Shown piece by piece: positions 25,567 to 47,808 of a DNA stretch of 64,000 nt. The notes beneath the pieces were generated by a model that did not search any database, was not told the DNA's origin, and saw only the letters and a list, made by a program, of their open reading frames with translations. Location: the NCBI GenBank assembly GCA_025267735.1, contig CM046303.1, positions 43,537,380 to 43,601,379 on the forward strand, written 5' to 3'. This DNA comes from Mactra quadrangularis (lineage: Eukaryota; Mollusca; Bivalvia; Venerida; Mactridae). The translations under genes and the position numbers were made by a program. Numbering within the stretch: position 1 is the first letter of the stretch; each line of letters begins with the position of its first letter.

Positions 25567-28500
25567 ATGCCTCAGTTGGTTGCATTCAATAGAAAATGGT
25601 CAATTGGAAGTGATGACTTTGTGTATCCTGGTATTGGAGAAATTTTGCTCAGATTGATTTGGTAAGATTTTTTCTTAACTTTTCATTTAGGCCACACCAA
25701 ATTGATTACTTGTTCTACGGATGCAGCGCACCAGTTTTCTTGATTTTGAAAAAAAATTTTTTTTATTTTTTTCTTACCGCCCGCACATTCAAAAACTCCA
25801 CATCCAAAAAAAAAATTTTTTTTTTGTTACCGCACGCACATTCAAAAACTCCACATCCAAAAAAAATTTTTTTTTTGTTACCGCCCGCACATTCAAAAGC
25901 TCCACATTCCAAAAAAAAAATATTTTTTACCGCCCGAACGTTCGAAGAAATTATGCGCTGTTGAAGCATTTAGCGAAAAAATCGTAATTTCACCAAATCA
26001 AAAGCCGGATGTACGTCGTATCATAATTTATCATCTCAAGTCTTGTGGCAGGCTTTAAAATCGATAATTAGCTATCATTAACACTAGGTGTTCGCGTATA
26101 CAATCAACAAAGTGAAACTTTTATGATCCAATAATTATGAATTACGTAATACACCTTGATCAATTAAACCCATATCGGGATCGGGTTTAACGCCCGTATT
26201 GGCCGTACAATCTCTGTAATAGTGATCTTGTTTTGCTAAAAAATTCTCAGACAGAATATTTCGAATTTTGTGCGTGCATAGAACATGTATACAACTTTTA
26301 AAATAATATTTACTATAAGTTCGGTAGCAGAAACGAATAATTTGATGGAAATCAATTTCTTAAGATCGATTCTTTTTTAAACAAAGAAAGGTCAAAATTG
26401 ATGACATTATAAACACGTTTTCCAAAAATAAAGAGGTCACATTGCACTTTCTATTATGAACGAAGCTAACAGTCTTACACATCAAGTTTGCTAAGGGTAA
26501 TTAAAATTTAGCGATAAGTAGGATAATTATTACAATTAATGCTAAATAATTGTGAAAATTTCACAGTTTTAAACGTAATAACATTTAGTCTGATAGACCT
26601 TATTGTTTGGGGTTTTAACCCTTGATCGTATTATCAACAAGTATTTATTTGTTTTGTTTTTTATGATTCTGCCAATAACGTGCCCTTGTCGCACAAGAGC
26701 CAATCATCGCATAATAATTAAAACAGATGCGCTATCGTCGCGTCAAAATTCAATCAGTGAAATTCGTATTTGCTAGCGTTTTAAATATACAAATCTGATT
26801 GTTCGTTTACAACGCAACAGTCAAATGAATAAGACAGCTAGAATAGATTCAATACTTGGTGACGTACAGAACCTACGTCGATCTACGTTATTTCACTGAG
26901 AGTCTTAATCATTTTCGTGGGGTCGCGAAAATACGTTACAATTGCATTTTGACGTGTAAATTTCTTTTTTATCATCAATTATGTACATTGCTTTAAAAGA
27001 ATACGAGTACATTAGTTGATTTTAACAGAAATTCACGTTAAGTCTGAATTGTTACTAATATAGGCATTGATCTATTTCTAGAACATCAATTTTAACCATT
27101 TTTGTTTTAATGCTTTCAAATCTTAGAGCACAGAACATGCTGATGGTAGGGATCAAAAGGTACTGTATTATCTGATTATATCTTTGACATTTGGCTTTGA
27201 ACAGACATGTGAAAGGGCTTCAGTGCACAAAATACTATTAAAACAAATAGAAATATGCGGTCCTAAATAGATTAAAGCGTAGAATTTATTTATCAAAGAT
27301 GTAAGCAAACAACATAAACAAACAGTCATTGCCATTGAACATGTATTTACATGGAGAACTAGGGATGTTAAGCTATTCATATCATCATCCAATGAGACAA
27401 GAAAAAGCTCCTATTCAAGTGCTTTGTTGCGACTAAATTTTTTGTCGCGACTTAACTTTTGTTGCGATCTCTTATTTTGTCGCTATTTTTTTTATTCGCT
27501 CGCTTAAGATTTTATGTAAAAGGAAAAAAAAAATTTTTTATTTTTTTTTATTCGCTCGCCTTTGGTTTAATTCAAAAGTAAAAAAAAAAAATATTTTAAT
27601 TTTTTTTTGGCTCGCTCGCCCCATTTTTTTTCCAAAAAAATCCGTAGAACAAGTAATCAATTTGGTGTGGCCTTATCTATAAGTATTACTTTATTCAAAT
27701 TGGATAGATTTGTAGAAAAAATGGAGAGCTCTCCTACGCGCCCTAGCGTCTGCTTCCATTTTCTGATTAAAGTTTTGTGCAGTAAAATATATTTTACTAT
27801 TACTTTTTTATTTCTTATGGTATCAACTTCAAACTTTAAATATATGTTCCTTATTATCAACCACATCTCATGTGACAAGGTTCATGACTCCAAATACATT
27901 TTTTTCATAATTATCTCCCCTTGAACTAGGACTTTTCTTAAAGAAATACTTACTTAGTAGAGCATGCTGTCTCCACTGAAAGCGCTTGTTTTTTGTCATA
28001 GTAACTTATGTTATTTCTTTTACTTCAGGTTGATTGTGGTCTCAGTTATATTTGATGTTCATAAGACAGCTTTTGATTGTAGAGGTGGTCACCTACTTCT
28101 TACTTATTTCATTGGACTGCTCACATTACTGGTCGTCAGTACAGTTGTAACAGCAGTAGTGGTCTACATAAGCATGAAGGGTACCATAACTAATAGCTGG
28201 CCAAGAAGAGGTATACCTAAGCTAGTCTATGTAAAATTTGCCCTTTCTCTTCCTGAACTCGCATGGAATGTAATGGGAACCTACTGGGCTTTTGGTCTCT
28301 CCAATGGATGTGAATCTCATGTTGTATGGACAGTAAAAGGTGTTGTTTTATCTGGCTGGATCATTGGTTTAATAGTGTTAGCAGGCATTGGCATTGTATT
28401 TGATCCTCTAGGAGCACTACACAACACTGATTCTGGAGAAAACTCTCAACAAATGTCATCTGCTGCCAAACGTGTGTGGGAAACAAGGTTTGTTTGTTTG

Positions 28501-31500
28501 TTTACTTTTAATAAGTACAATGTTTTTATGAGACTAAAAACTATGTAGGAGCAATGGTTCCCTGGTGGAACACGTGCTTAGAGATCAAGAGGTCCCAGGT
28601 TTAAACCTCACTAGGGACTATAGGACATCGACTAAGCAAGTCCAACATGGACACTGCTACTCAGTCATTTCAAATATATTCTAAAATTGGTACAAAACCG
28701 GTCAGGACATCAACTAAGCATTGTCCAACATGCACCTTGCTACTCACTTGAAATAGGTGTCACTTACTGTCACTTCAAATGTACCCACTTGGGGCTCTGT
28801 AATTTCCTTGAACTTGAAATTTTCTTACAAGTTTACCTACTCTACCCAGGTGTAAATGGACAGACTTTAAACTGCAATTATAAATGTTATAATATGTGAG
28901 AAATTAACAAGAAAAGGAAAGACAAAAACATGAACTGTGCCAATGAATAAAAATATTGAAAATATTTCAACTTATGTTTTCTCTTCAAAGCCTTTCAGGC
29001 CAAACATAAATTATTTATTTTCTATTATCATTTCAAGAAAATAACAAACTCATAAATAGGTATGCCCGGACAGGTACGTTTTATTTCATTCAATTCTGAT
29101 ACATTTAATTCAAATAGCACTTTCGCACTTGAACAATGGCTCTTGAAAAAACTATTGCCGCTATAACATCGGCATCAATGTCCTATTACATTTAATGTTC
29201 TCCGTAAAAAAAAGTGTCCAGAACCAATATTCCCTTTCATGAAAACACAATCATACCAATTTCACTTAAGCATTAAAATGACTGTACAAAAAGTCATATC
29301 TGCAAAAGATAAAGAACATGATAATTTCATTTCTAAATATATGATACTGAAAGAAAGAGAGAGAGGGTGGATCCCTCTCACAAAATCAAAATCATAAGTA
29401 TATAACTCATCCATTTTCACGTGACTATACAAAAAGTCAAATCTGCAAAAGATATAAAACACGATTACTTAATTTCAAAGACATTTCAGATACAACTAAA
29501 AAGGAAGAGGGTGGGAGGGTGGGTAGTACGATAAAAGTATTTAACGATGTTTCCTTTGTCCTGTCCGAAGCTCGAATGAGTTTTCAAAACTCAATACGTT
29601 CAAACCTACACAATATGGCACGTGAAAAACGTGCTAAACGCTCCAATGAACATCTTTACATTCAGCCAATAATAAATACATTTATGTTTTCTCTTCAAAG
29701 CCTTTCAGGCCAAACATAAATTATTTATTTTCTATTATCATTTCAAGAAAATAACAAACTCATAAATAGGTATGCCCGGACAGGTACGTTTTATATCCTC
29801 GACCCAAAAAGAATGGGTATATATTCAAGTATTAGTCCACCCTCACTTTTCAATAGTCTGGTAATATGCAAGAAACAATTGATGGAAAGCAACAAAGAGC
29901 ACATTTGAGACAAGCGTTCCTGACAATAAATGATCCAAGACCTCAAGAAAGATTGATACAAAGCGTCACATACAGCCGAATAGTGGTTGCATTATGTGTA
30001 TATACATTTAAAGAAAAAATAATGATATATGCGGCAAAGAAGAACCCAATAATTCTATAGCTTTGTGTCATAAATTGAAATATAATTCAAAACGTGTAAA
30101 ACGTCTCTGTTTGAGAGGCAAAGTTAACAAAAATATTTCATTTTCAGTATTAATTTCTTTTTATAAACTGTTTAAAAATATTACTTTTTTGGTTGCTATT
30201 CAATTAAAGCTACTTAAGAATATCATATAAACTATGCACTAAAATATATAATGTATAATTATCAAGGCATGGTCTGATAATCCTCCTTCGTGTGTCATTT
30301 AAGCGTCAATGGTTTAGACCGTCCCAAATTATCTATGATTTGATGTAACGAACCGTTTTGTACAAAATGAACTCAAGTGTGATAATACTTACATCTAAAT
30401 CACAGTTTAGGGAGAAGATATTTAACAATTTTATTCAAGAAATTCATTCTTAGTATAAAACAAATGCTTAAGCACATAAATGATATATTTACAAAAACAC
30501 ACCAGATACATTGTATAATAAATCATCAAACTTCACTAACTAGAACTCACTGTCTAGATGATCACAGAAAAGTACACGTTTTAGCCTAATATGTTTCATG
30601 GTGGCCCTCATGAATATATGTGCCATGGCAATGATACCCAAATTGTTCCGCGTGCTCAGACAAATTCAAAACTCATTCCATATAAGAGCGTAGGCTTCAG
30701 TCTGCGTTCAAATAGACGATTGCTTTGAAAAGAAATATAAAATATAACAAAAATATCTAATTATATGTCCATTTATCCAGGAAAACGTATTATTGCATAA
30801 AACTGCATGTCTTAAAAAGTTATCGCATTTAAATTTCGAGATGCAAAGATATAGACCTTAAAACTTCAATTGATTGTATCACATACTCATCTTTAGCGAT
30901 ATCGGATTTCAGATTGGATATCCATTATTAATACCGCTTTTAACAGCAGCCATAGCTTCTAATAATGTTCTTAAAAATTAATATTTCAAAATATATATTC
31001 AGTAGTACTATAAAGAATTTGGCAGACAATAAATTATAATGTTAATATCTAAATGGACAAGTTACCGTTCCTGTTTTACGTATGATTACGAATTTACCAT
31101 AACACATCTAGGCAGCCTAAATAATCAAAATTGTTACGATATTTTAAACAATACAATACAGTAGGATTAACGACGAAATACGGTGATAAGGCTTTTGACG
31201 ATTAGGACCCCTGGTCAATTCTGTTAGAGGCAGTGAAAAACTTTATATGTTAATCCTGAGAACAAATAGAGGTCTCGTCTTTAATTCTAACTACTTAAAT
31301 GTATCTTAAAATTCAAGCGAAACTTAGAAAACAAATTGCCAAGAACATAGCGTCATTCAAACTTATTTTGAAACCATATTTAGTTTCCGTATTTCATAAA
31401 TGTTCAACATTAAAATGCAAAATCTGATTAGTAGATAAAGAGTTCAATTTCAAAATCTAAAAATTGTCGACAATTATCCTCAACAAGTGTGAAGTACACT

Positions 31501-34500
31501 TCTTTGCCAATACCAGACAAAAAACTGCAACAAAAACATTTTAGATTCCAATATAATGTCTACAAGTGTAAATTCCTTTTCCTGAACAAGATACAAACAG
31601 TCACAAAAAATATCAATATCTCAAATTATTAAAAAAAAATGTGAAACATATTTCGTTGCCTGTACAAGATACACACAGATTTTTTGTCTCCCATAATCTC
31701 AAAAAGTGTGAAGCACTTCTTTATTAGTATCTCATCACCTAAACAAGTGTAAAGCACACTTCTTTGCTTGAACTGGATACAGTCACAAAACTATCAATAC
31801 ATTTATTTTTATATAATCTCAACAAGTGTGAAGCACACTTCTTTGCCTGAACATAAAAAAGACAGTCACAAAAATATTAGTATCTCATTTTATATCAAGT
31901 GTGAAGCACGTTTCTTTGCCTGTACAAGATACAGACGTTTTCAAAAATATCATTACAAGAATCTCATATAATCTCAACAAGTATGAAGCACACTTCTATG
32001 CCTGAACAAGATAAAGACAGTCTCAAAAATATTATTATCGCATAAAATCTCAACGAGTGAAGCACACTTACATACTTTCGTATTTGCCTGTACAAGATAG
32101 AGTCAGTCATAAAAAATATTAATATATCATATGAAACAACAATTTTGAAGCACACTTCTTTGCCTGTATAAGATGCATACAGTTTCAAACATACATGTAT
32201 AAATATATGAATTTCATATAATCTCAACAAGTGTGAAGCACACTTATTTGCCTGCACAAGATTCAAACAGTCACAAAAAATAGTATCTCATATAATCTCA
32301 ACAAGAGTGAAGCACACTTCTTTGCCTGTACAAAATACAGACAGTCACACAAATATCAATAAATTCATCTCATATAATCTCAACAAGTGTGAAGCACACT
32401 TCTTTGCCTGTACAAGATACAGACAGTCACAAAAATATCAATAAATTCATCTCAAATAATTTCAACAAGTGTGAAGCACACTTCTTTGCCTGTACAAGAT
32501 ACAGACAGCCACATTTTTTTTTTCATTATCTCAACAAGTGTGAAGCACACTTCTTTGCCTGTACAAGATACAGACAGTCACTTTTTTTTTTCATTATCTC
32601 AACAAGTGTGAAGCACACTTCTTTGCCTGTACAAGATACAGACAGCCACTTTTTGTTTTTCATTATCTCAACAAGTGTGAAGCACACTTCTTTGCCTGTA
32701 CAAGATACAGACAGCCACATTTTTTTTTTCATTATCTCAACAAGTGTGAAGCACACTTCTTTGCCTGTACAAGATACAGACAGCCACTTTTTGTTTTTCA
32801 TTATCTCAACAAGTGTGAAGCGCACTTCTTTGCCTGTACAAGATACAGACAGTCACAAAAATTCCATAAATTTATCTCATATAATCTCAACAAGTGTGAA
32901 GCACACTTCTTTGCCTGTACAAGATACAGACAGTCACAAAAATTCCATAAATTTATCTCATATAATCTCAACAAGTGTGAAGCACTCTTCTTATATTAGT
33001 ATCTCATATAATCTCAACCAGTGTGAAGCACACTTCTTTGCTTGTTAAAGATACAGACGGTTACATAAAGTTAACTATCACATATAATTGCAACGTTTGT
33101 GGAGAGCAATATTTTGCTAATACTAGTTACTTTTATAATCTAAATAGTTATTCTTTATTCATGACTTAAAGTTTAATACCTGAAACATTACTATTGAAAA
33201 ATATAGATTAACACCTATCTTTTACCAATAGTCTATATTACGTTTTAACCTGCCATTAACAAAGTCACCAGAAATAACACTTTTGAAAATGTTTGATTGT
33301 TCCTGGTAGTAAAGAAAATCAAAATCTTGATTAAATCTAGATATAAAAAATATACTCATCATTGCTTTTCGCTGTCGGTTGGTTCCTTTCCTGTGACTCA
33401 AATATTGATTATACTGGTGTTGATACCATTTTGGATCGTATTGGACCAGAGACATTCTCGTCTGAAATGTCCACGACGTCCACATTGAAAACATATGTTC
33501 ATCTGATGCTTATCTCGATGATCTGTTGTATGATAGGTTTCTGTTAACATGGCTTCTCCATAAGCCACTGTTGAGGAACTTCTCCCAAGAAATGTCTGTC
33601 TGCCAAGGACATATATGTAGCATCCGTAGTGAATAGTTTAGGGCATGAAATAGAAACAAAATCATGAGGTGAAACAGGAGATAATGGTGGCTGTGAATAA
33701 TTAACACTCTTTCAAAGCATTGCTTTCGATGGCTTTTACTTTCTTCTCCTTCTTCACTGTCTCTGCCGAGTGAAGGCTTTTCATAGTCCCTCTCTGTAGC
33801 CCAGTCCCCGGGAGAGGAGAAGTCAACCTTAATAAGTCTATTTCTGTAGTTAAGTTTGTGTTTCAGAGCTGTAGCAATGTTGTTAATGAAGCCAACACTA
33901 GAAAACTTATTTATATCATCTAAACGTCAGTATTTTCATTATAAATTCAAATTGAATCTTTGGGATTCAATATAAAAAAACCATTATTTTCTTTAAATTT
34001 ATCAGAAACAGACGAAGAGAATTCTCACATTAAATCATTGAGTTGAGAATCAAAACAAATATTCAATAGTCAAAACGTATCAACAATATCTGTATTATCC
34101 CCCGAGGGCTTACCTTGACCACGTGCTACGTCTCCCCCAAATCACAACCAAATGTCCAAAATCCAGGTTAACAATATCTCGTCTCTTTGATTGGAAAGAT
34201 ATTATCCCCCATGTCCATGTTTCTTTAGATTAAAGCCACACACTCTTGATTCGCACTAACATCAGCCAAAGCGTTTAAGACGAAGCCATACTCAAATTAA
34301 AATTCGATGTACGATAAAAGTATTTAACGATGTTTCCTTTGTCCTGTCCGAAGCTCGAATGAGTTTTCAAAACTCAATACGTTCAAACCTACACAATATG
34401 GCACGTGAAAAACGTGCTAAACGCTCCAATGAATATCTTTACATTCAGCCAATAATAAATACATATAAGGCCATAAGCACAAGTCAATAAAGAGTCTTAA

Positions 34501-37500
34501 TAACATAAAAAATTAAATGTACAAGAGAAAAGAGAGGTTAAATCATGTTCTAAGAAGAAAAAAGACACCAGAAATTAAAAGTAGACAACTTACAAAACTT
34601 TATAATGTTACTGTATTTCAGGTGTAAAATATTATGTTGTTGTGTGGGCTGCGATGAACAAAGTACTAATGCATTTAGTGGTATTGCTGAAATATTCTCT
34701 AATTTCTTTCATGTAAGTACACATATGTTTACACTTGTGTTTGTTTTTCTTTTTAAATTAATATCTATTTAGAGGTATAGGGTAGAAGAAAGCCTGATGG
34801 CAATTATTGGTCCCCTTGAATGAATAATGCCCTCGAGCCTCCGCTCTTCAGAGCTAACTCATGAATATAAAGAAGCTGTGTTAAAATACTTTTCTTGATT
34901 TTTTTTCTGGATGATGTCATATTTGTTATGAAATTCCCTTAAAAGAAATTAAGACTTAAGCATTGAGTTTTATCACTATTTTAATAACCGCTAAGCAGGT
35001 CTGGACATTAAAGGTTGTTCTAATGTCCCTGATTGCCTTTATTTGGGTTGAAGTGGCTTGTTACTGCATGTAAATAAGTGAAACATATATCTGTTTGTTA
35101 AACAGGGAAACCTAGTTTAAAGATCAATGTCTAGCCCTGCTAACCATGTGTCGATTTGATATGCTGGTGTCATGACTAATGTAAATGCTTAGCTAGACAA
35201 GTATAAGAAGATCAGTTGGTGGTAGGATAAAAGGTTTTATTTATTTCAGGGTGTAGATTTAGTACCAACAGACATTGCTTGTGGTCTTATCTTAGTTCAC
35301 AGAGATCAACAAAGAGAAAAGAATAGATTAATGTCAGTGAGGGTTGAACCTGTAAGAAGACAAAACTCTACTGGATCCTTTAGGAATCGTGAGGAACAAC
35401 AGTCCATTCAGTATGTATTAGTTAATATATTTTGTTAAATTTGCAAATTATTTTTCTTGGTATAGTACATTTTCCTCATTGGGATTTCTTGATAAATTGA
35501 TGATATAGTATTTTTCAATAGTATTTTTCATTAAATTGCGTAAGATTTCTAAAGTTCATCCATTGTAGCAGTCTTTATGCAAGACAATTAGACAGTCAGG
35601 CATTCTATTTCAGAGGAATATGTTAGGTAGGGCAGGCTCAGTGATTTTTAACAGAGCCAATTATGATTTTCACTAATAGTCTACTGTTCTTGTCTATATT
35701 ACTGAACATAAATTTAAATTTTGAAAAAACAACTTAGAGTTCAAGGAGAATTGTTGGGTAGGATGGAGTTGTCTTGAACACAGGATGTTTCAGGCCTTAG
35801 TTGTAAATTTAAACTTCATTCTTATCTTTTCTAGGCCTACAGATGATGGAGCATCAGTCAGTAGACTTGACAATTCTAACATACCCACTCCATTACCATG
35901 GATGAACATTGAACTGATGTGTCATTATATGAAATTTGCTATGGCTAGTTATGGTTGGCCTTTGTATATATTTACACATTTAATGACTGGATCATGTCAG
36001 TTATGGTCACAATGCAAGTAAGTATAGAATTGTGTATCAATATACATGTATCACATTTAATCCATTGTCTGCAGGGCTCAGCATTATTTCTTAAGGTAGG
36101 TTGTCTGCTTGGACAAGCAGTTAAATATTTCCGTTGCTTAAACAAAGTGTTTACTAGCAGTTACAAGTTGCCCAAACCCAGATATAACTTGCTAGGGGCA
36201 ATTGGATGACCTTTAATGTTTAGCCCTGTATCTGTATGATAGACTAACAGAATGCATTTATGTATTGGTCCAATTAAAGGACATTAGACTAGACCATGAG
36301 CTTTCTGGTGGAGTTTTGAAAATATGTCTGTGCCACTTATGACTTCTTTTCCAGTTAAGTTAAAAATTTTGCTGATGCTGACTGCCCAAAATAACAATAT
36401 TTAACAGGTGCTTATAATAAGTTATGTCAGACATAAACTGTGATATTATTGAAAATTGCTGTAAATCCAAACAACAGTTATTCTGTCTGTTGGAGTAAAA
36501 AATCAAATGGTCTGGGCTATTGGACTAACACAAGTCTGGATGTGTACTAACATTAAAAAACATGGCATGAATAGTTTATTAGTGTGATAGTGAACATATT
36601 ACATGTACATATACAATGCATACTATATTTGTTGTTTAACTGCTTGCCAAAACTACACTATTGTTTTAATAGTAAAAGTTTACACATTTTATGCAATTAT
36701 ACAATTTTACTTTTTTGTTGCTTGTTGTGTTATGTTATTTATATCATGTTTAATAGTTTTGCATGGCTATTGCATTTATCCATTTAAATAGTTTTATTAT
36801 TAACAATATATGTGTATATTTAATGTTTTTCCTCATGCTTTATGAAAAAATATCATGTTGACAATTATACCTTCAACATCTAAAATAATATGACTTTTTA
36901 TCAATAATATGTATTGCGTCCATAGTTCATGTTTCATTGAGATTTGTTTTCACTGGATTACTAGTACGCCCCCTGATCTTTAGAAACTCCTTATTTGTAT
37001 GTAGGTCCATTTTTATCCCTATTGCTTTTTACCTTGGCTATTCACCTCATCATGGAATGTTATTAAACTATGCCTTTTTTGCATGTTATTGTTATCAATG
37101 CAGTTGTTTTATTCAGTACTCTACTCAAAATCATTGCATCAGTATCTTAGATCACTAAGATACTTCACATATATCTGAATACATTCTTGCTTTAAGAAAG
37201 GCAAACATAAACAGCTTAATGAATAATTATAAGTATTTAAACATCAAAGACCCGCGTGGTTACAGCAGCCAGTGTCACATCTGTTGAAAAATCCTGGAGT
37301 TATGGTTCCATCACCATTATGGGACATACAAACCTGAAACCTTGGTGGAGTTTGATCATGAGATATTTCCTACGGCCATTTTCCTTCCTATTTTTGTTAT
37401 ACTAGTTGTCAGCCACTGAAGAAACTACACTGAATAAAATGTCAAAAAATGAGATAGCACCCCCTAAATTACTTTAATCAGAGATTATTTCAGATGATGA

Positions 37501-40500
37501 TCAATTTTTCAGTTATACTTGTCTACCACCCTGTCTCCGAAATAAACCATCATATTCCAGAATGTCATATATGGATTGTTTATACTCTTGTCTACATTCA
37601 TGTAAATCCCAAAGTATGACAGTTATTGAAACAGAGAAGGAATTGAATGAATTATGTTTATCTTTACAGTGAGTCTTGATTGCATATACCACTTTCCTTC
37701 TTGTTTTGGTTGAATATAACACTTTCTTTGTAGTTTTAGTTAAATATAACACTTTCCTTCTTGTTTTGGTTAAATATATAACACTTTCTTTGTCGATTTA
37801 GTTGAATATAACATTGTGACACTGTAGTTGCATTGAATATAGAACACTTTAACACTGATGCTTTATTGAATATAACAGTGTTGCTCTGCATGTATAGTTT
37901 AATTTGATATAACCCTGTAGTTGGATTGTATATAATACTGTATGTAAAACTCTTTTTGGTCTTGATCAGTAAAATGAAAATGAAAGTCAGAGGCTCGCTT
38001 AATGTGTTGCCATTTTGAAACAGTTAAGACATTTTAAAGCATTTAACTTTCATTGTCTGACAATTTAATGCATCTGAATTTCATTTTCCTTCTTACATTT
38101 AAAGCATCTGAATTTCATTTTCCTTCTTACATTTGAAGGATCTGAATTTCATTGTCTGACATTTTAATAGTTATTATTTTTTTTATTTTCTGTTTGACAT
38201 TTCAAAACATCTGATTTCATTTTTCTTCTAACTTTTTCAAGCATCTGATTTTCATTGTCTGACATTCAATTAAGTTTGACATTTTCATGCATCTGACTTT
38301 CATGTTCATTTTACTGGTGAAGACTCTTTAACCAAAAATTTTATTTATGAGTTTAATTCTGTAAATATTTGTTTGATCTTCCTTCCTTTTGGAGTACTCT
38401 TACAAGGACATAATTATATAACTGTAGTGTCACTGAATATAACACTAGTTTGATTTGATATTACCCTATAACAATGTAGATTACTTGTATATAACACTGT
38501 AGTTTGATATTTGTTTGTAGTCATTTTGTACACATCATCCTTGTTTGATTTGATGCACTAAAAGTCAAACTTTATTTAAATAATGTGCATTTGATATTTG
38601 TTAAATTATTATTCTATAAGGTATTGATTTATTTGAACTCTAAGTTAGTTTAGTTTTTTCTTCACTTTATTCTGATTGATTTTGTTCCTCTATTTAAACA
38701 TATATATTAAGAATACCTGGATGGAATGTTTTTGTATCTATTTTTTTCTTCATACTTAGGAGCTTTTATATCATAGTTGAAACATGTGTAAGATTTTTTA
38801 CACATGTTTAAACTATGATATCAAAGCTATATGATATTAAAGTATGATTTTTTTTACATTATATGATTTAAGTTACTTTGCTCCAGATATTAATCACATT
38901 ATTGTTAAACTACTCCAAATTCTTCTTGATAACTTCTTGGCTTATTATTTGTGTGGAAATGTTGTTTTGTGATAGAATGTCAGAGTTCTGAGTGTAATTC
39001 TTTTCTGTCTTATTGTTTATATTAAAGTTTGAGTTAATATTAAAAAATCAACTACATGTGTACCACATTTTGTGTGTATAAAACTGTATGCTGATAATGT
39101 TTAAAAGCTGTAGAGTCCTGCTGAACCATGTTCAGCCAACTGTCCATCTTATTATGACATTTTTATGTCAGCCTAAACTTAGTCTAACTACATACACAAA
39201 TAAAGAAGACATAAGACTTATTTTGCTCTGACTAATTGGTATACATGCAGGGCTCTACATTAAAGGTTGATTTATTGTCCCTGACCACCTACCTAGTATA
39301 TTTGGTTCAGGCAAGTGAAATGTATACAAGGTAGTCCAATTAGGCAACCTTTAAAATTGAATATCAAGCCCATGATATGTAATGTGAACTTCCCATAAAG
39401 ACCACCTCCTTATGTTAAAATAGTAACCTCACCATTACCATGCTTTTCAGGGACTACCAATTTCTAGTTTGGTCAACCAAAATTTCTTTTAGGCAACCAA
39501 ATTTCTACAAACAAGATATAGTGCTAGCTGCTAAAATGATCTGTTAAGGCAACCACTTTCATATCCTAATTTCGTACACTGTAAACTATATGTATATATT
39601 TCTAGATGCTGTTCATGTTGTATAACAAGCAGTGATATACAAGATGATAACTGTTGTAGATGTAATACTGCTTCCATACATAAAACTACTGGTGTTCATA
39701 ATGATGATATTGTATATGCTAGCTTTCATAATAAGGTATGTACCATTTATCAATCTAATGATGATATTGTATATGCTAGCTTCCATAACAAGGTATGTAC
39801 CATTTATTCATCTAAAATCATTCCTTAATGCTACAGTCCCATAAACATAAAAATAGCCGTGAGGGCGCCGTGCGATCAAGCTCCGCAAGGACTCGTACAA
39901 ACTAATGCGTTCATGTACAGACTGTTACATTTTTACCAGGATCTATGAGATGGGCCATGGATACACATAATTATCAGTATCAAAGTGAAATCATGAACAA
40001 AATCATGGCCGAGTTTGGATTAAACTTGGATATCTTCCAGCTACCGCTCTGTACGGGTGTGTTGTTTTGTGCCATGTGCGTACCGTCACCTTAATACACA
40101 AGGCTTATCACGGCCTATGGCTGTCTGCACATACAAGTCCGCAACAAGCCACGATTTTATGGAACTGAGGCATTACTCTTTATTTGCTTGGCTACTAAAG
40201 ATGAATAAATGTATAAATAATTCCAACACTCTACAGTTGCCAGCAATGATCAAGCATACTCATGAAATTATTTATACGGCCATTCTCCCTCCTACCGATG
40301 ATTTTTTATTATGCAGGGCAGTTGTCAGTCACTGAAGAAAGTATGCCCTTAATAGTTGGTTAACAGCTAAATCCAGAGATTTAGCCTTTCCAGGAGGAGT
40401 GAGTAGGTTGACTGACCACTATTATATGACCTATACAATGTGTTGCTACAGAGTAAAACCAAACAAACACACAAACCAGGATTTAGTTATATGACTTATA

Positions 40501-43500
40501 CAATGTGTTGCAAAGGTGTAAAAAACAAACAAACAAAAAACAGGATTTATTACTCTCATTTGGAAGAAGAAACAATATGAATGATTATATTTTATATATT
40601 ACAGATTTATGAGACTCCATTTTATGTATGTATAGATAGATCTCAACAGAAAGTTGTTATAGCTGTACGAGGGACATTATCATTAAAAGTAATTTCTTAT
40701 ATTTTATCTAACTTTTATTTGTTGTGTTTTTAGTATTGTTTAATTTCATATGAACTACATTTTTGAAATTTCATAGAAAGGTATGACCTACTTTGACTAA
40801 ATATCAAATCTAGATCACTGGAGTCAAAGTTTTATATGTAAACCAATGTCTGGTTAAATTTTGTTTAGATGTAACCCCTCAGATTTTAAATACTTACCAC
40901 CAGGGACCTGGAAATTCGCCGATGTCAATCGGTCCAATGCCGTCTTGAGTACCGGATACGGGTTTTAACGTGTACCGTACGGACCAGACCGTTTACTGTA
41001 CTTTATTCACGACCATGTTAGTACTTTTTTTTACTCCCCTTTATTAAGAAGGCATACGATACATAGGCATTGTTTGTTTAAATTTTTACAAAACTTTACT
41101 TCTATCTAGCAAGAAAACGTGGTTTCCGAAATTACTCCCCGCAATCGTCGGTCGGTTCAACAAACAGAACTTGAAAAAAGACTGTTTCATCTAGCTCTAA
41201 TGTTGTTGGAAAACTCCGTCATTTAGGCAAATCATTTTAACTGAGCATGCGCAAAACGGGTCCAAAGTAAATGTCGCGCATCTTTAAGTATCGTTCGCTA
41301 AATAAAGCATGAAAGCGTAAAATTATGATCAGCTTTTTAATTACTCACGTAGATTAAAACGTTTGTCATACGAAGTGACGATCTAGCGTGGGTCGTGAAA
41401 ATGTATGGCATCTCATCACAATGGTTCAAGCGGTTTCGTTAAACACAAATAAATATCAAATTGTGCATAGTACACCTATTTATAAATAAATTACTGACTA
41501 AACTGTTCGTTTTGAAAATTATTTTCGATGTCATCAAAGAAGGGAGAAGTGTGGTTGAATTTTGATCATCAAGAACTGACCTTCGATTAATTGCATAGAT
41601 ACATGTCCTAAGATTATTTCTTATTATTCACACCTCAATTTACGGCGTAAAAATAAATCATGAATCAACAAATTAAAGATCAAACGAATACAATAGGAAT
41701 TGACAACAAAAGCTATTAAATTGTTTTCTTTGTAATTATTCATAAAACATTCTTCATAAAACATTATTGTTTTTTACAAGTTTACAGGTTTCAAACAGAC
41801 CATCTGAAATCGTAATCGGTTCGATGGACATGATAAAGTAAGAACATATTCTGCTGTTCTTCAATTTAATCGAGTGCAAATCAAGCCTACCTTGCTGTGC
41901 TCGATAAAAAAAATATCACTGCCTCAACCCGCATGATACCTGTAACCATGGATACGTTATACAGGGTCCTTGATGTGTAACCTGTGGACAATTAAGCAGG
42001 ATATTACAACAATAAACAGTGGGTTTATGCAACTGATAGTTGTTTGATAATATTTTATCGATACGTTTTCTTGAAAATTATGGAAATTAATGGTTTGGGG
42101 TCAAAATTAGCGAGTTTTTCCCGGACCGATTTTTTTAAGGATTTTGAAATCTCAATCGGTCCAAAATAAAAAAATCGGTCCGAAAACCGAAAAACCGGCG
42201 ATTTCCTGGTCCCTGCTTACGACAGGACTTCTGTACTCACAATCAACAAAAACAATAACCCAAACCTATGTATAAGAATTATGGAACAAATATTGAGTAT
42301 TTAAAACTTGTGATTGCCTACATGCTCAGATAGTTAAGGTTTCCACTTTTGTGCTAGATGCAGATATCTATAGAGATGTGTATGCAAGTCCAATCTGATT
42401 AAAACCCGATCTTAAATTTTCTGCTCGCATACTCGCTAATTTAGATCTGGCCTTTTTCAAACAAAGGTCACGTTCTGATGACCTTTTCTCATCATAATAT
42501 TCGTGACGAAATTGTTATAATACGTAACTTGTTTACATCGTCTACGTCACGCAATTTGAAATGAGCCGCCCAATCGCAGACTGTGAATAATACCACTGTT
42601 AAATTAGCATGCAAACCTTGGTCTAAAAATAGAAATTACGAAATCAAAATGTGATTAATAGTGTTTTCGTTTAGATGAAAGCTATGTATAGATTGGTCGA
42701 CACAAAGTTCATCTCGACGTGACCTTCCACGGAGACAGTAGAGATCCTGTACAACAACGCTCTACAGGATATCTGTTTGCGGAGATTGATGCAAGCCCAC
42801 CCATCTGGTTTGTTTAATATTTATAAAACATATATTTTCAGGATGTGATTACAGATCTGACTGCTGAGTATGATCCTATAGAAATAGATGGTTTAGAAAA
42901 TTGTGTGGCTCATAGAGGAATGTTACATGCTGCTAAATTTGTACAATCAACTTTAGATAGATTAAAAATATTAGAACAAGCCTTTGATAGGGCTCAGGTA
43001 ATGCTTATGTATTTTTGTAATGTCTTGGCAATTATGCAATTCTATTTCTTCACACTTGTGGATTTGAATGAGATGGTACCCAGGTATTTGCAATCAGTAT
43101 GCTTTCACATGTGGTAATATAGGGGGCAATAAGTTGTGAAGCAATGAAAGACAACTTAAAAAAGACAAAAGCTCTTTGAACAGTTTTTTAAGGAAAAGTC
43201 TGCTTAAAAAAGTTTCGTTGCAATATTGTTGTTGTTTTTTTCTTGTAAAGTTGGATTTATATATACATTCACATTGCATGCTCAGTTGCCTTTCTATTAT
43301 CCTCAACCAGCCTTCCTTGTTCATCCAAATAGATATTTCCATAGAAGTGACCTACTCACTGTACAAATTTACACATACTTTGAGCTGGACCACAAGTATC
43401 TTCAGATTAGGGAAGGGGGTAATTTTTTGGAGAGCAGACTTTTCTGGGTTTTTTATTATTTCAAAAAATGTTTGTGGCTTCTAGTTGATTGACAACTGAA

Positions 43501-46500
43501 TCAGCCATTTGCTTCAGCATGCTATTTATATATACATTGTATCATCAAATTCTGTTTCAGAAATCAGATTAATTTTTGTTTGGCCAACCATTAAGAAGGA
43601 TATCATATTCAACTATTTGAATTTATTCACAAACATGTGTCTTTACCATTTTTTTTGTGCTGCAGTCATTTGATTGCATGACCAATGAATAATGTTACTT
43701 TTATTTGATGTTTATGTGGCTTAATCTGGGAGTTTTAGGCATAAACAGTTTAGTTTAAATGATTACATAGATGTATGATATATTTCAGGGTGCTAAATTA
43801 GTTATAACTGGACATAGTCTAGGTGCTGGTACTGCTGCTTTACTTGCTTTATTATTAAAACCTAGGTATCCTGATCTGGTTTGCTTTGCTTTCTCTCCAC
43901 CAGGTGGTCTGATGAGGTAAGTGATATAGAAGCTTTGTTAACATCACATATAATCAACAATTGGGCTGTCATGATATACCAATATACAGGTATATTGCAA
44001 TATGCAGCTGTGGCTAAACATACCATGGTACGAATTATCATACCAGTATTTAGTGATATTTTTTATTTTCATTGAAAACATTTTCTCTTTGCCAAATGAA
44101 AGTAGTGAAATGTCAATTTTCCATGATTCATATGATTAAAGCTTAAATTCAAAGAATTTAATTGATCTGGATGCCTTCAGAATGTTCCAATAACTCTAAA
44201 AATGCCCAGTTTTTCTGCAGTCTGTTACAGGCACTTTCCCTACAAAATCCTGTAACATACTTCAATACTGAACAGATGAATAATTTTTTTAGACAAAAGT
44301 ATTATGCAGCCGTGTCTTGGTTTGCAAAGCAATATATTGTGGTACCTATTGCGATAAAGTTCTAGCACATTGCAATATACTGCAATAGGCTTCTGGCGTA
44401 TTATGACAGCCCTAATCAACAAATAACATCAGCTTTAATGCTATTGTGCGACAAAGAGGTATCCACTGACAGATACTTACCTGGCTGCTTTACTTTATCT
44501 TCTAAGCACTACCCTTTTGATGCTGAATGCTTAACAAGGTGCTGCTAGCACTATTTTTTATTGTCTTGGTGTGACTTGGCCCAGGATCGAACCCAAGAAC
44601 TGTCTGACCTGAAGCAAATGCTCTGCCCTTAGGCTATCATCTTATATTTTTATTGTTGTGAATAAATTTCTGGATTCCAAACTAAAGTTTATGCATTTTC
44701 TACTAGATATGAGTGGTGAAAATAATGTTTTAAAATATTGAAGAATACCATGCAACATAAAATAATTGGACTTATTATACCCCCGCTTCGAAGAAGAGGG
44801 GGGTATACTGTTTTACCCTTGTCCGTGCGTGCGTCCGTGCGTCCGTGCGTCCGTCCGTTACAAAATTTCCGTCACAGTTTTCTCAGCAACTATACCTTGC
44901 AGCAGCCTGAAACTTTGCATATTGCTTCATCCTATAGTCCCATGTGGTGTAAAGCGATTTCATGCTCCTTGCTCATCTACTTCCTGTTTGTCGCATATTT
45001 TTAGATTTTGGCGGGGGTATCACTAGTGAGCATTAGCTCACAGATTTACTTGTTAAAGTTAAGTGTTCACTGAGAACCTATAAGGCATAATCATATACTG
45101 TGAATTCTCTAAGTTTCACTGTTATTTGTTATTACATCTTAATACAATTTAGATAAAACATATGTTGGTATGTATTAATTATGTTTTTCATTTTATTTTA
45201 TTTTCAGTTTGTGTGCTAGTAAATACTGTCAAGATTTTGTATGTTCTGTAGTATTAGGTGAAGATATAATACCTCGGCTTGGTATACATACAATGGAAGA
45301 TTTAAAAATAAACTTATTAAAATCAATACATGAAAGTGATAAGCCTAAGGTTAGTAGATTCTATTATACTGTTTTACTGTGGTTATCATTGGATAGCCAA
45401 CTCCATGTTGGTTTGAATCCAATCCAAAATCTACCCCCATTGTTTCCTTGAACAAGAAAACTTTATCCTACTAGTTCAGTACTGGGGGACCAGGAAGCGG
45501 ACTAGAAAGTGATTAATCTAAGATGTGAGAACTTGTATCACAATTGAGCTAAAATAAATATGTATTAACTATGTACACTGTTTTACTGGGCTATCAATTT
45601 TCAGCAGATTTTAGTTTCCAAAGTTCATCTGTGAATATATTTACCTTTGATGAGGAATTTTTATGTTATCTTTGCAATTATAATAAGATGCACAGCTAGA
45701 TTTGGTAGCACACAAGCTCACTAATCAAGGTGTCATAGGTCCAATTCATGGGCAGAGCATTCTTTGGTATAGCTTGGCTTATGAAATAATTTCTACTGCC
45801 ATTCTTCCTCTTACCACTGATTCTAAATCATGTAGGGCACTGACGGAATTATGTGCCTAGTAACTAAGTAACAGCTTAATTTAGAGATTTTGCCTTTTCA
45901 GGAATGGTGAGTAGGTTAGATGACCCCTTGATATGACCTAATCAATGTGTTACTGTAGTGTTAAATTCAAATGAACAAAAAAACAACAAATTTACAATTA
46001 AAAAATACCCTCCCAATAACAGTCATTTCTCTAAAACACCGTGATAGATTTCACATGTAGACATGTATATATTTCCAGTATAAATTGTTAGCTAGTGGCG
46101 CATGGCAGATGTTTTGTGGTTTAAAAGAATCTTCAATTACAGATGAGTCCAGTGAACGATCTTTACTGAATGGAATACATAGATCTTCATCATATGTTGG
46201 TGGCGATGAATCTAACCTTGAGGTATGCTTTCATTTTTAATTTACTTTAAGTCATTTAAGTTATCAACGTCAAACCATTTTTTAACATGCTCCAGATTTT
46301 TAAGTGTACTGTTCATAAGCTCTATATGATATAACCTGACATGTAAAAAAGAACTGGATGTAAAGCACCCTTAAAATGTTGATTTTATTAAATGCCGTAA
46401 AAGCTTGGTAGCTCAGACTCAAAAGTTCATGACAAAATTTCAAGCACATGGAGTGTTTGACCCATCAGAATTCGTATTACATTGTATTCCAGCATTTTTG

Positions 46501-47808
46501 TTTTTTTTTTACAATTTTATCTACAAGCTTCCTTCCTAGATAAGAAAAGGAAATATATTGTGTCTTGTAAACTATTCAACCCATTCAGGTAGTTTGTGCT
46601 AGCACTGTATTACATTGTGATGACTGATTCTCCATATTTACAGAATGCTTTACATGAAGCACAAAGAAACAATGAACATTGTAAGATCTCTCATCCACAA
46701 ATGTATCCACCTGGTCAAATACTTCAAATATCTGAAGCAACTAAGAAAAGGTATATATTTTAATTGATAGTTTTATATCATGTGTTTATATTTCTTAATG
46801 CACAATAATGTGAAAGGAAGCCAACAACTTACATTGATCACTCACTTGTTTGCTGTCCAAAACCAACTACGATGTTGACTGGATATAATTATTTTGCTCA
46901 GGAAAACAATTGTGGTCAATGTTTGAATATACCTATCTAGCCTACTAGGTTATACTCTTGCAAGTTATTTCCTAGGAGCCATTCGCTTTCAAGTCTTTTT
47001 TTGTTAAAGAAAAGGTATTAATAAACTAGACAAACCAAAATGGCCAAAGTATGACAAGCATGGATTACACTGCTAATTATTCTTTTTGAATTATAAACCA
47101 CTTCATTTGAATTTATTTATTGTCTCCCAGCTGTGACACATTTTACCTTTCAACGTAAAAAACATTCAAGTGTCAACATTTTATATTTACTCTTATAATT
47201 TGTGCAAATATTGTGAAATTTTGGACTAAATTTTTAAGCCGCTGGCTAGCTCATTTGGTAGCACCCAAGTCTACTGACCGAGGGGTTGTGGGTTCTATTC
47301 CTGGGAGGAGCATACTTTTGTGGAGCTTGGTCATGAAATTATTTCTATGGCCATTCCCCCTCCTACAAATGATTTTTAATTATGTAGGGCAGTTGTCAGT
47401 CACTGACGAAAGTATGCGCTTAGTAGTTGGTTAACAGCTAAATCCAGAGATTTAGCCTTTCCAGGGAACAGTGAGTAGGTTGACTGACCGTTCTTATATG
47501 ACCTATACAATCCCTTGCTACGGTGTTAACCCCCCCCCCAAAAAAAGCCACAAAAAAATCATAAAATAACTTGGACTAAATTATAATATACATTTGTATA
47601 TGGTCTTTTTTGTAGGTCATGTTTTGGTGTACCAGAGTACAATGCGGAATGGTCAACTGTAGAAGATTATAGTAAAGTTATAGTTAGTCCTAAAATGTTA
47701 TCAGATCATTTTCCTGATGCTGTTATGAGAGCATTAAGTCAACTTGATAATAGAGACTATATACCTATGTTAGAACCAAGAAATTCTTCCTCTGTATTAC
47801 ATGTATGA
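25567..47808 (+). CDS. DAGLB: Diacylglycerol lipase beta (sn-1-specific), 14 exons
   Basis: Exons: 25567-25661, 28029-28487, 34622-34712, 35250-35410, 35835-36017, 39606-39735, 40605-40688, 42842-42997, 43789-43916, 45208-45349, 46079-46222, 46644-46750, 47616-47808. That is 13 coding exons listed here with 2073 nt, 690 aa (human DAGLB 672 aa). It starts MPQLVAFNRKWSIGSDDF and carries the four-helix N-terminal membrane domain, mostly in exon 2. The alpha/beta-hydrolase domain follows. The nucleophile is Ser463 in GHSLGAG, the acid Asp515 in GEDIIPRLG, the base His658 in SDHFPD; the Ser-Asp spacing of 52 equals that of human DAGLB (443/495). The enzyme cleaves diacylglycerol to 2-arachidonoylglycerol and other monoacylglycerols. 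DAGLB rather than DAGLA because it stops shortly after the catalytic domain, lacking the long DAGLA tail. Exon 39606-39735 has a duplicated donor (alternative end 39792). Confidence 0.95.
25690..27672. mobile_element. 2-kb PIF/Harbinger-like element with perfect inverted ends
   Basis: Left end GGCCACACCAAATTGATTAC continuing through TTGTTCTACGGAT is matched exactly in reverse complement at the right end (27640-27672), about 33 bp. TTA flanks both sides (25687-25689 and 27673-27675), fitting a 3-bp TWA duplication. Subterminal regions are long A/T homopolymer blocks: CCGCACGCACATTC-A-rich repeats on the left (25740-25940) and TTCGCTCGC-T-rich repeats on the right (27480-27625). The centre shows faint similarity to the 10970-12319 element (AAACAAAGAA(A/G)GGTCAAAA and TTTTCCAAAAAT). 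No intact transposase is visible. It fills most of DAGLB intron 1. Confidence 0.8.
28550..28900 (+). repeat. Possible tRNA-like SINE relic in DAGLB intron 2
   Basis: GGTGGAACACGTGCTTAGAG and GGTCCCAGGTTTAAACC sit at a spacing like tRNA A and B boxes. The block GGACATC(G/A)ACTAAGCA is repeated (28622 and 28706). A similar arrangement occurs at 50392-50620. The assignment is weak because the sequence is diverged. Confidence 0.35.
28972..29084 (+). repeat. Direct repeat A, copy 1
   Basis: A 113-bp block beginning TTATGTTTTCTCTTCAAAGC and ending GGACAGGTACGTTTTAT. It recurs essentially unchanged at 29682-29794. It forms the left end of a 710-bp unit whose right end is repeat C (29526-29681). Confidence 0.9.
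29526..29681 (+). repeat. Direct repeat C, copy 1
   Basis: A 156-bp block from GTACGATAAAAGTATTTAAC to CAATAATAAATACAT. It recurs at 34309-34464 with one noted difference (GAACATC versus GAATATC). It abuts repeat A copy 2 directly. Confidence 0.9.
29682..29794 (+). repeat. Direct repeat A, copy 2
   Basis: Second copy of the block at 28972-29084, immediately following repeat C copy 1. It starts a 4.8-kb unit that ends with repeat C copy 2 and encloses the satellite array. Confidence 0.9.
29795..31478. other. DAGLB intron 2, no gene seen
   Basis: AT-rich intronic sequence between repeat A copy 2 and the satellite. An open frame at 29866-30060 has no recognisable domain. I see no further structured element here. 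Confidence 0.4.
31479..33056 (+). repeat. Palindrome-bearing satellite array, about 22 units
   Basis: Units share the core CAACAAGTGTGAAGCACACT then TCTTTGCCTGTACAAGATAC and AGACAG, joined by variable A/T-rich linkers. Each core contains the palindrome AAGTGTG-AAG-CACACTT. Unit period is about 62-66 bp between 32520 and 32840 and about 75-85 bp elsewhere. Copies at the left (31479-32300) are diverged; those between 32370 and 32960 are almost identical, as expected of recent unequal exchange or slippage. Long repetitive frames (32389-33048 on +, 32526-32825 on -) are by-products of the period. It lies within DAGLB intron 2. Confidence 0.93.
34309..34464 (+). repeat. Direct repeat C, copy 2
   Basis: 156-bp block nearly identical to 29526-29681. 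It ends 157 bp before DAGLB exon 3 and closes the 4.8-kb unit that started at 29682. Confidence 0.9.
36065..36240. repeat. Small inverted-repeat element (GCAGGGCT family)
   Basis: The left end CAGGGCTCAGCATTA and the right end AATGTTTAGCCCTG are inverted copies. The interior has CTTGGACAAGCAG and AAGTTGCCCAAAC. Related sequences begin at about 34994 (CAGGTCTGGACATTAAAGG) and 39248 (CAGGGCTCTACATTAAAGG) in other DAGLB introns. CAGGGCT ends suggest hAT-type MITEs. Confidence 0.5.
37250..37440 (+). mobile_element. SINE fragment, strongly diverged
   Basis: Contains CTTGGTGGAGTTTGATCATG, TTCCTACGGCCATTTTCCTT and GTTGTCAGCCACTGAAGAAA, in the order found in the SINE at 9266-9575. The head is decayed. 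Confidence 0.5.
37660..38310 (+). repeat. Two degenerate short tandem-repeat tracts
   Basis: The first tract (about 37660-37930) repeats TTAAATATAACACTTTC with variable spacers. The second (about 38030-38310) repeats CATCTGAATTTCATTTTCC and CATTGTCTGACA at roughly 35 bp. Both are diverged. They lie in DAGLB intron 5. Confidence 0.6.
38761..38828 (+). repeat. 31-bp near-perfect hairpin in DAGLB intron 5
   Basis: The arm AGCTTTTATATCATAGTTGA continuing to ACATGTGTAA (38761-38791) pairs with 38798-38828, with two mismatches in 31 positions and a 6-base loop. Size is comparable to an animal miRNA precursor, but such high pairing also fits a small palindromic repeat. No second copy was seen in this window. 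Confidence 0.6.
39700..39813 (+). repeat. DAGLB: 57-bp tandem duplication across the DAGLB exon 6 donor site
   Basis: Copies 39700-39756 and 39757-39813 differ at only a few positions. Each copy includes the last codons of the exon (NDDIVYASFHNK) plus the donor AAGGTATGT. The length is 19 codons, so the reading frame stays open from the first donor through the second. Donor 1 ends the exon at 39735, donor 2 at 39792. Use of donor 1 gives the ancestral sequence; donor 2 would insert VCTIYQS plus a repeat of NDDIVYASFHNK. Confidence 0.93.
39829..40172. mobile_element. PIF/Harbinger-like MITE, copy 2
   Basis: Left end TGCTACAGTCCCATAAAC and right end (reverse) TGCCTCAGTTCCATAAAAT, with TTA at 39825-39827 and 40173-40175. 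The interior matches 9825-10165 (CAAGCTCCGCAAGGAC and similar). It begins 16 bp after the duplicated donor segment of DAGLB. Confidence 0.65.
40240..40545 (+). mobile_element. SINE, 5'-truncated, with duplicated tail
   Basis: Body blocks GGCCATTCTCCCTCCTACC, TTGTCAGTCACTGAAGAAAG and TTGGTTAACAGCTAAATCC match the SINE at 9266-9575, without the tRNA-like head. The tail segment TATACAATGTGTTGC plus an AAACAAAC run occurs twice (about 40433 and 40498), so the 3' end was tandemly duplicated. It ends about 60 bp before DAGLB exon 7. Confidence 0.7.
40901..42215. mobile_element. 1.3-kb hAT-like element (CAGGGACC ends)
   Basis: Left end CAGGGACCTGGAAATTCGCC; right end in reverse complement CAGGGACCAGGAAATCGCCG. 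Flanking 8-mers CTTACCAC (40893-40900) and CTTACGAC (42216-42223) match at 7 of 8 positions, consistent with the 8-bp duplication of hAT elements. Subterminal CGGTCC words recur in inverse orientation. No transposase frame is intact. It lies in DAGLB intron 7. Confidence 0.75.
43926..44420. other. DAGLB intron 9, inverted TGCAATA/TATTGCA words
   Basis: GGGCTGTCATGATATACCAA with ATATTGCAATATGCAG near the left and TGCAATATACTGCAATAGG with GCGTATTATGACAGCCC near the right look like the inverted ends of one element of about 450 bp (43963-44414). The CATGACAGCCC end is inverted relative to GGGCTGTCATG. Open frames inside have no domains. Confidence 0.5.
44772..45053 (+). repeat. Dispersed repeat, ATTATACCCCCGCTTCG family, copy 2
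   Basis: Near-identical to 10254-10515, with two extra GTCCGTGC-type units in the GTCCGT run. It lies in DAGLB intron 9. No coding capacity. Confidence 0.75.
45688..45990 (+). mobile_element. SINE, old diverged copy
   Basis: A recognisable head (CAGCTAGATTTGGTAGCACA, then CCAATTCATGGGCAGAGCAT) and body (CTTGGCTTATGAAATAATTT, AACAGCTTAATTTAGAGATT) follow the order of 9266-9575 with many substitutions. It ends in A/AAC-rich sequence. It lies in DAGLB intron 10. Confidence 0.65.
47233..47570 (+). mobile_element. tRNA-derived SINE with 12-bp target duplication
   Basis: Head GCTGGCTAGCTCATTTGGTA and body match the SINE at 9266-9575. Direct repeats TTGGACTAAATT flank it (47221-47232 and 47571-47582). 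The tail contains a C-run followed by A-rich sequence. It ends about 45 bp before the last DAGLB exon. Confidence 0.85.

Follow-up and report, generated by a model that had tools for sequence, protein, structure and literature searches.

A 57-bp tandem duplication has doubled the 5′ splice site of exon 6 in a clam gene that resembles diacylglycerol lipase beta (DAGLB). The duplication is real, and it is specific to the lineage of the source clam. Both copies of the unit carry the same donor, and use of either donor would leave the reading frame open. The likeliest mechanism, which we hold with moderate confidence, is that the first donor (donor 1) serves as the main splice site and that the duplication has little effect on the protein.

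The duplication and the gene that carries it

The window, by which we mean the whole 64-kb stretch of DNA that was analyzed, holds a TRF array at 39699-39815 with a period of 57. The two copies of the unit are identical at 53/57 positions, and the four differences between copy 1 and copy 2 are T/C at 39726/39783, T/C at 39732/39789, C/T at 39751/39808 and A/C at 39752/39809. Since the span of the array equals 2 x 57 + 3 and T39699 is the same as T39756, the duplication junction shows a 3-bp microhomology. A repeat arising by chance is ruled out: when the mononucleotides of the window were shuffled 200 times, no 57-base stretch at this lag matched at more than 35 positions, compared with the 53 observed. 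An unmasked search returned no further matches to either copy in the 64-kb window beyond the copies themselves. A transposon origin of the unit is unsupported, as the repeat in intron 6 starts at 39826, outside the copies. Rfam gave no match at gathering score for the 64-kb window. Short tandem duplications are not rare in the window as a whole, for which TRF gave 32 rows, four of them within intron 5 of DAGLB.

Each copy contains the last 12 codons of the exon followed by the first bases of the intron (Table 1). The donor AAG|GTATGT together with the next nine bases (ACCATTTAT) is the same in both copies, so that the identity spans positions -3 to +15. Two consensus donors (39735 and 39792), both predicted from the sequence to be competent, thus share one acceptor (40605). 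Beyond donor 2, the frame reaches a stop after 11 more codons. A new intron between the copies was considered and rejected, since the intron lies directly after copy 2, the stop follows after those 11 codons and there is no new exon.

Table 1. Positions of the DAGLB-like gene, the duplicated unit and the neighboring repeats in the window
Feature	Positions	Strand	Basis or remark
DAGLB-like gene, 13 coding exons	25567..47808	+	hand splicing; 12/12 introns GT..AG
DAGLB-like exons 1-5	25567-25661, 28029-28487, 34622-34712, 35250-35410, 35835-36017	+	hand splicing
DAGLB-like exons 6-9	39606-39735, 40605-40688, 42842-42997, 43789-43916	+	hand splicing
DAGLB-like exons 10-13	45208-45349, 46079-46222, 46644-46750, 47616-47808	+	hand splicing
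Exon 6 with donor 1, 130 nt	39606..39735	+	hand splicing
Exon 7, common acceptor exon (IYETPFYVCID...)	40605..40688	+	hand splicing
Copy 1 (last 36 nt of exon 6, first 21 nt of intron 6)	39700..39756	+	donor 1 after 39735
Copy 2 of the 57-bp unit	39757..39813	+	donor 2 after 39792
57 nt added to exon 6 by donor 2	39736..39792	+	would encode VCTIYQSNDDIVYASFHNK, 19 aa
AA after copy 2, same as the unit start	39814..39815	+	sequence letters
High-copy repeat of ~350 bp, intron 6	39826..40175	+	own-genome search; 7 copies compared
Part of a dispersed SINE-like repeat, intron 6	40260..40475	+	self-BLAST, 88.6% to 47331-47532 and 89.4% to 9360-9575
Other SINE-like copies	9253-9576, 45683-45986, 47225-47533; 16197-16416 (-), 60782-61065 (-)		self-BLAST

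The gene is complete and intact. Hand splicing yields a protein of 690 aa with donor 1 and one of 709 aa with donor 2, with no internal stop in either. The preliminary description had placed the 57-bp tandem duplication at these positions, had assigned it to exon 6 of a DAGLB gene with two AAG|GTATGT donors, and had stated that either donor keeps the frame with a difference of 19 residues; all of this was confirmed by the TRF period, the splicing and the domain match given below.

A class 3 lipase domain (PF01764) was found at residues 391-520 (E 6.1e-19), and the spliced window protein has the GHSLG nucleophile motif. In P0121 of Mactra antiquata, residues G136, H137 and S138 show no variation across 63 aligned sequences. 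Residues D190 and H332 of the same protein, which we take to be the two triad partners of the nucleophile, Asp and His, are at least 90% conserved, and both are also present in the window protein. The predicted structure of a Mya relative has four long N-terminal helices (15-42, 52-80, 95-122 and 128-156), and by homology to this model the window protein would have four N-terminal membrane helices. A long C-terminal tail is a mark of the alpha-type diacylglycerol lipase; the window protein, at 690 aa, is without one. Based on its domain, motif, triad, helices and tail, the product is predicted to be an sn-1-specific diacylglycerol lipase of the beta type.

Among the matches listed, the top named full-length relatives are the ‘diacylglycerol lipase-beta-like’ proteins of Ruditapes, Mercenaria and Mya (63-64%). 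The closest match, again among those listed, is a Mactra antiquata gene in two annotated pieces, P0160 and P0121, which are identical to the window protein at 287/330 and 322/359 aligned residues, respectively. The source clam is thus a bivalve close to Mactra, though probably of a different species from Mactra antiquata. The public Mactra antiquata annotation breaks this gene between exons 5 and 6 into ACF0H5_001090 (P0160) and ACF0H5_001091 (P0121), and P0121 begins with an apparent false start (MYISR...) in the intron immediately 5′ of exon 6. A fold search returned fungal class 3 lipases, with 5ch8 at the top (E 1.6e-11), and confirmed the class-3 lipase core without adding to it.

Other features surround the gene. 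Two long repeat pairs, each 85% identical, flank DAGLB at 10973-12319 / 57933-59325 and at 18172-18682 / 55330-55853 (self-BLAST). Upstream of DAGLB and on the same strand, the stretch 7977-14751 holds an arginine/serine-rich ORF (7977-8492) with no Pfam match and an ORF (14389-14754) with the SMAP domain PF15477. These two ORFs resemble parts of RSRC2 and may belong to a single gene.

Ancestral state, age and selection

The 19 columns of the insert are empty in the relatives. Residues were found in these columns in 0/120 aligned relatives, while letters are present on both sides of the junction in 120/120 (the 120 listed of 766 matches, an alignment that takes in vertebrate DAGLB and bivalve paralogues). 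Of 76 further proteins, 21 cross the junction by at least 8 residues on each side; the insert is present in 0/21, and three have a one-residue gap nearby. Five of the 76 proteins score 1-4 points higher against the 709-aa form, three of these five being read-through ORFs, and score gains of this size do not amount to an insert. Mactra antiquata P0121 reads NDDIVFASFHNKIYEIPFF across the junction, without the insert. This protein is uninformative on a DNA duplication in Mactra antiquata, because splicing at donor 1 would lead to this protein with or without a second copy.

The DNA itself can be followed in relatives whose apparent genomic ORFs extend beyond the donor into intron sequence, namely P0193, P0194, P0195, P0196 and P0158 (P0150 is not a read-through). 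Past the donor, these continue without a second copy for 13, 55, 24, 16 and 50 codons, respectively, of which the 13 codons of P0193 and the 16 of P0196 are so few that they would reveal just part of a second copy. As far as the ORFs reach, all five relatives have a single copy, and therefore the duplication is derived. Comparison of the sequences thus identifies the donor-1 product of 690 aa as the ancestral protein.

None of the relatives retrieved by the protein searches was recognizable as the source species’ own protein. It had been suggested that the duplication could yield a lineage-specific lipase isoform. The change in the DNA is indeed lineage-specific, given the single copy in the five read-through ORFs, but the isoform itself finds no such backing: no own-species protein was recognized, and the proximity data discussed below favor donor 1. 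Likewise, the event had been called recent because the copies differ so little. This stands on the scale of species, and on that scale only, since the divergence of 4/57 is 7% with a 95% interval of 2-17% (Jukes-Cantor 0.074, 0.020-0.193). The duplication need not be a polymorphism.

Two of the two exonic differences between the copies are synonymous, an outcome whose probability under free drift of copy 2 is 0.02-0.06. This hints at constraint on copy 2. The changes may instead lie in copy 1, and the test of constraint is powerless because they cannot be assigned to either copy. Selection for the open frame is unsupported. A duplication that is in frame and open is expected by chance about 1 time in 5, the product of 1/3 for the length (0.33) and 0.65 for seven stop-free intronic codons, and the openness is thus weak evidence.

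Predicted competition between the twin donors

Based on these observations, we propose that a 57-bp stretch across the exon 6/intron 6 boundary was tandemly duplicated in the lineage of the source clam, probably by slippage or end joining at the 3-bp microhomology. In the pre-mRNA, the acceptor at 40605 would then be contested by a pair of identical 5′ splice sites that lie 57 nt from each other. The local sequence is no guide to the winning donor because both donors are identical. Intron 5 measures 3588 nt and intron 6, counted from donor 1, 869 nt. Given introns of this length, exon 6 is probably recognized across the exon, and donor 1, which is nearer to the exon’s own acceptor, would take most of the splicing, with the ancestral 690-aa enzyme as its product. 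Splicing at donor 2 would produce a less abundant form of 709 aa, in which the loop ahead of the hydrolase core holds an additional NDDIVYASFHNK segment. Skipping of exon 6 would shift the frame, since its length of 130 nt is not divisible by 3. We infer exon definition, donor 1 as the major site and near-neutrality.

The rules behind this prediction come from work on human exons, in which the upstream donor is preferred when the donors are near-equal and the flanking introns long (PMC9225289, in the portion available). In the same portion, exclusive use of the upstream donor is described for five minigenes whose strong donors were identical and whose introns measured 365 nt, the preference flips when the downstream intron is short, and larger minigene exons with weak donors are skipped (PMC9225289). 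The clam exon has equal donors and long flanking introns, and therefore donor 1 is predicted to be its major site by this rule, which is human and not molluscan (PMC9225289).

An alternative that we consider unlikely, while granting it some weight, is that most splicing, or a regulated part of it, takes place at donor 2, so that the 709-aa DAGLB is made mostly or tissue-specifically. One native DDIVYASFHNK-IYETPF unit would then be kept and the other looped out, leaving the enzyme active or tuned. Such an outcome has a human counterpart in MSH6 c.3936_4001+8dup, a 74-bp tandem duplication over the exon 9 donor; the portion of the report available describes an absence of the normal transcript and use of the downstream donor, at 7:1 versus exon skipping (PMC9818763). 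It would also agree with human events taken without the equal-strength filter, as the downstream donor was preferred in ~60% of these and held the majority in 4/4 intron classes (PMC9225289, portion available). The human cases compared, PMC9225289 and MSH6, point in opposite directions as far as the available portions go. Predicted local pairing leans slightly to donor 2, with a mean unpaired value of 0.24-0.35 compared with 0.22 at donor 1, a small difference. The frame of copy 2 is open with no stop having arisen, and its exonic differences from copy 1 are both synonymous. On the other side, the openness has a probability of ~0.2 by chance, and residues in the insert columns occur in 0/120 aligned relatives (of 766 matches). 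MSH6 intron 9 is short, in contrast to the 869 nt of clam intron 6, and this would bring the MSH6 outcome into line with the minigene rule. Exon-centric proximity, in a setting of equal donors and long introns, favors donor 1 over donor 2 (PMC9225289, portion available).

The place of the insert in the protein also bears on the use of donor 2. Two relatives were modeled as stand-ins for the spliced window protein, P0121 (mean pLDDT 85.8) and Mya P0005 (85.9). In the P0121 model, residues K48|I49, where exons 6 and 7 meet, are part of loop 45-53, between strands 40-44 and 54-59 (block pLDDT 92 and 97). In the P0005 model, the junction is enclosed by strands 343-347 and 357-362 (block pLDDT 95 and 93). 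When the sequence is aligned with that of 5xk2, the segment connecting the corresponding two strands differs by one residue. These models suggest that the insert would come to lie in a loop that is tight, modeled with confidence and placed ahead of the hydrolase core. IYETPFYVCID had earlier been described as a core strand; the models place IYE in the loop and start the strand at the F of PF. Since the insert repeats its neighbor, it could alternatively sit before the first strand, in the helix-strand loop 34-36 of P0121, and this predicted freedom to take either loop 34-36 or the strand-strand loop 45-53 speaks for a tolerated 709-aa form. It seems to us quite unlikely that donor 2 is the main or a tissue-regulated site in the clam lineage and that it gives a doubled NDDIVYASFHNK at a point where 0/120 aligned relatives have an insertion. 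In that case the new segment would be born partly from the intron, and it would be buffered both by the choice of register that the repeat allows and by the continued production of the old protein from donor 1.

The length of intron 6, on which the predicted preference for donor 1 in part depends, owes much to repeats. The ~350-bp repeat begins 11 nt past the duplication and occupies much of the intron. Our search of the clam’s own genome (an assembly of 979,026,929 bases in 447 contigs) had 12395 candidates, of which 40 were scored; 39 of the 40 were further places with this repeat, at 84-87% identity, and self-BLAST located another copy at 9824-10168 in the window. The fuller copies of the SINE-like repeat open, as judged by eye, with a tRNA-like stretch ggctagctcatttggtagcac...gggttctattcc. 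Together the two repeats make up 566 of the 869 nt of intron 6 and leave a repeat-free part of ~300 nt. Because the repeats supply these 566 nt, the intron without them would be near the short class (250 nt in the available portion of PMC9225289). The exon-definition class of exon 6 may therefore itself be recent.

Repeats also occur in intron 2 of DAGLB, where a tandem satellite at 31473-33144 has units of ~69-82 bp with the core CAACAAGTGTGAAGCACACTTCTTTGCCTGTACAAGATACAGACAG. The same intron has the direct repeats 29526-29684 / 34309-34467 (98.7%) and 28972-29087 / 29682-29797 (99.1%) by self-BLAST, and these pairs are possible traces of recent copying.

It is very unlikely, in our judgment, that the duplication is an artefact of assembly or haplotype joining, or a segregating allele of a gene that is usually single-copy. 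Bivalve genomes have high heterozygosity, as is generally known, and this would lend itself to such an explanation. However, the copies differ at 4/57 sites, no other match to them is present in the 64-kb window, and the window lies inside a 70-Mb contig, at C11:43537380-43601379. In addition, the own-genome search gave one full match, and the other 39 of the 40 scored (of 12395 candidates) were all in or around the intron repeat. Recursive splicing, in which donor 1 would be joined to the AG at 39791-39792, donor 2 regenerated and exon 7 then joined to give an mRNA for the donor-1 product, is scarcely credible: AAG|GTATGT in the unit does put an AG|GT exactly 57 nt beyond donor 1, but the bases 5′ of this AG (ctagcttccataacaag) have no polypyrimidine tract by eye, and an intron of 57 nt would be very short.

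Comparison with known systems

In the literature on DAGLB splicing and on molluscan DAGL, the clam duplication was not found among the matches listed. The available portions of PMC1877881, PMC11718197 and PMC2423196 contain nothing bearing on duplicated donors. Based on the available portion of the report, the MSH6 duplication is similar to that of the clam in that the end of an exon and the start of its intron were duplicated and the donor thereby doubled, with 66+8 bp in MSH6 and 36+21 bp in the clam (PMC9818763). In contrast, the human variant is pathogenic and out-of-frame and leaves no normal transcript, whereas the clam unit is a multiple of 3 and free of stops, and both of its donors would lead to full-length proteins (PMC9818763).

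The minigenes with competing identical 5′ splice sites share with the clam exon equal donors, an internal position and long flanking introns (PMC9225289, portion available). However, they are engineered human constructs with CAG|guaagu donors and 365-nt introns, while the clam offers a natural gene with AAG|GTATGT (PMC9225289). Natural twin donors 57 nt apart would allow exon-wise and intron-wise distance to be cleanly told apart as the factor that determines the choice of splice site.

Intron gain by tandem duplication, described for potato RdRp and vertebrate ATP2A1, likewise doubles the splice signals, and the Rogers model of this process involves a duplicated AGGT (PMC4974935, portion available). 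AAGGT is present in each clam copy, as that model requires; the model also calls for a new intron bounded by the copies, flanked by exon sequence and leaving the peptide as it was. In the intron-gain cases the new intron lies between the copies, whereas copy 2 of the clam continues into the old intron and would act as an alternative donor (PMC4974935).

The GNNK donors of KIT are also similar to the clam donors, as two in-frame donors lie on one exon, and use of the upstream donor drops a few residues that use of the downstream donor adds (PMC12818652, portion available). The KIT donors are 12 nt apart and common to five mammals, in contrast to the clam donors, which are 57 nt apart and lineage-specific (PMC12818652). 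If donor 2 is used in the clam, the gene would also show how a rigid enzyme can gain a segment that comes partly from an intron while the old product is kept. Taken together, these comparisons indicate that events of this kind have precedents among human variants and in studies of intron gain; the clam stands out in that both outcomes are in frame and that the donors are identical from -3 to +15.
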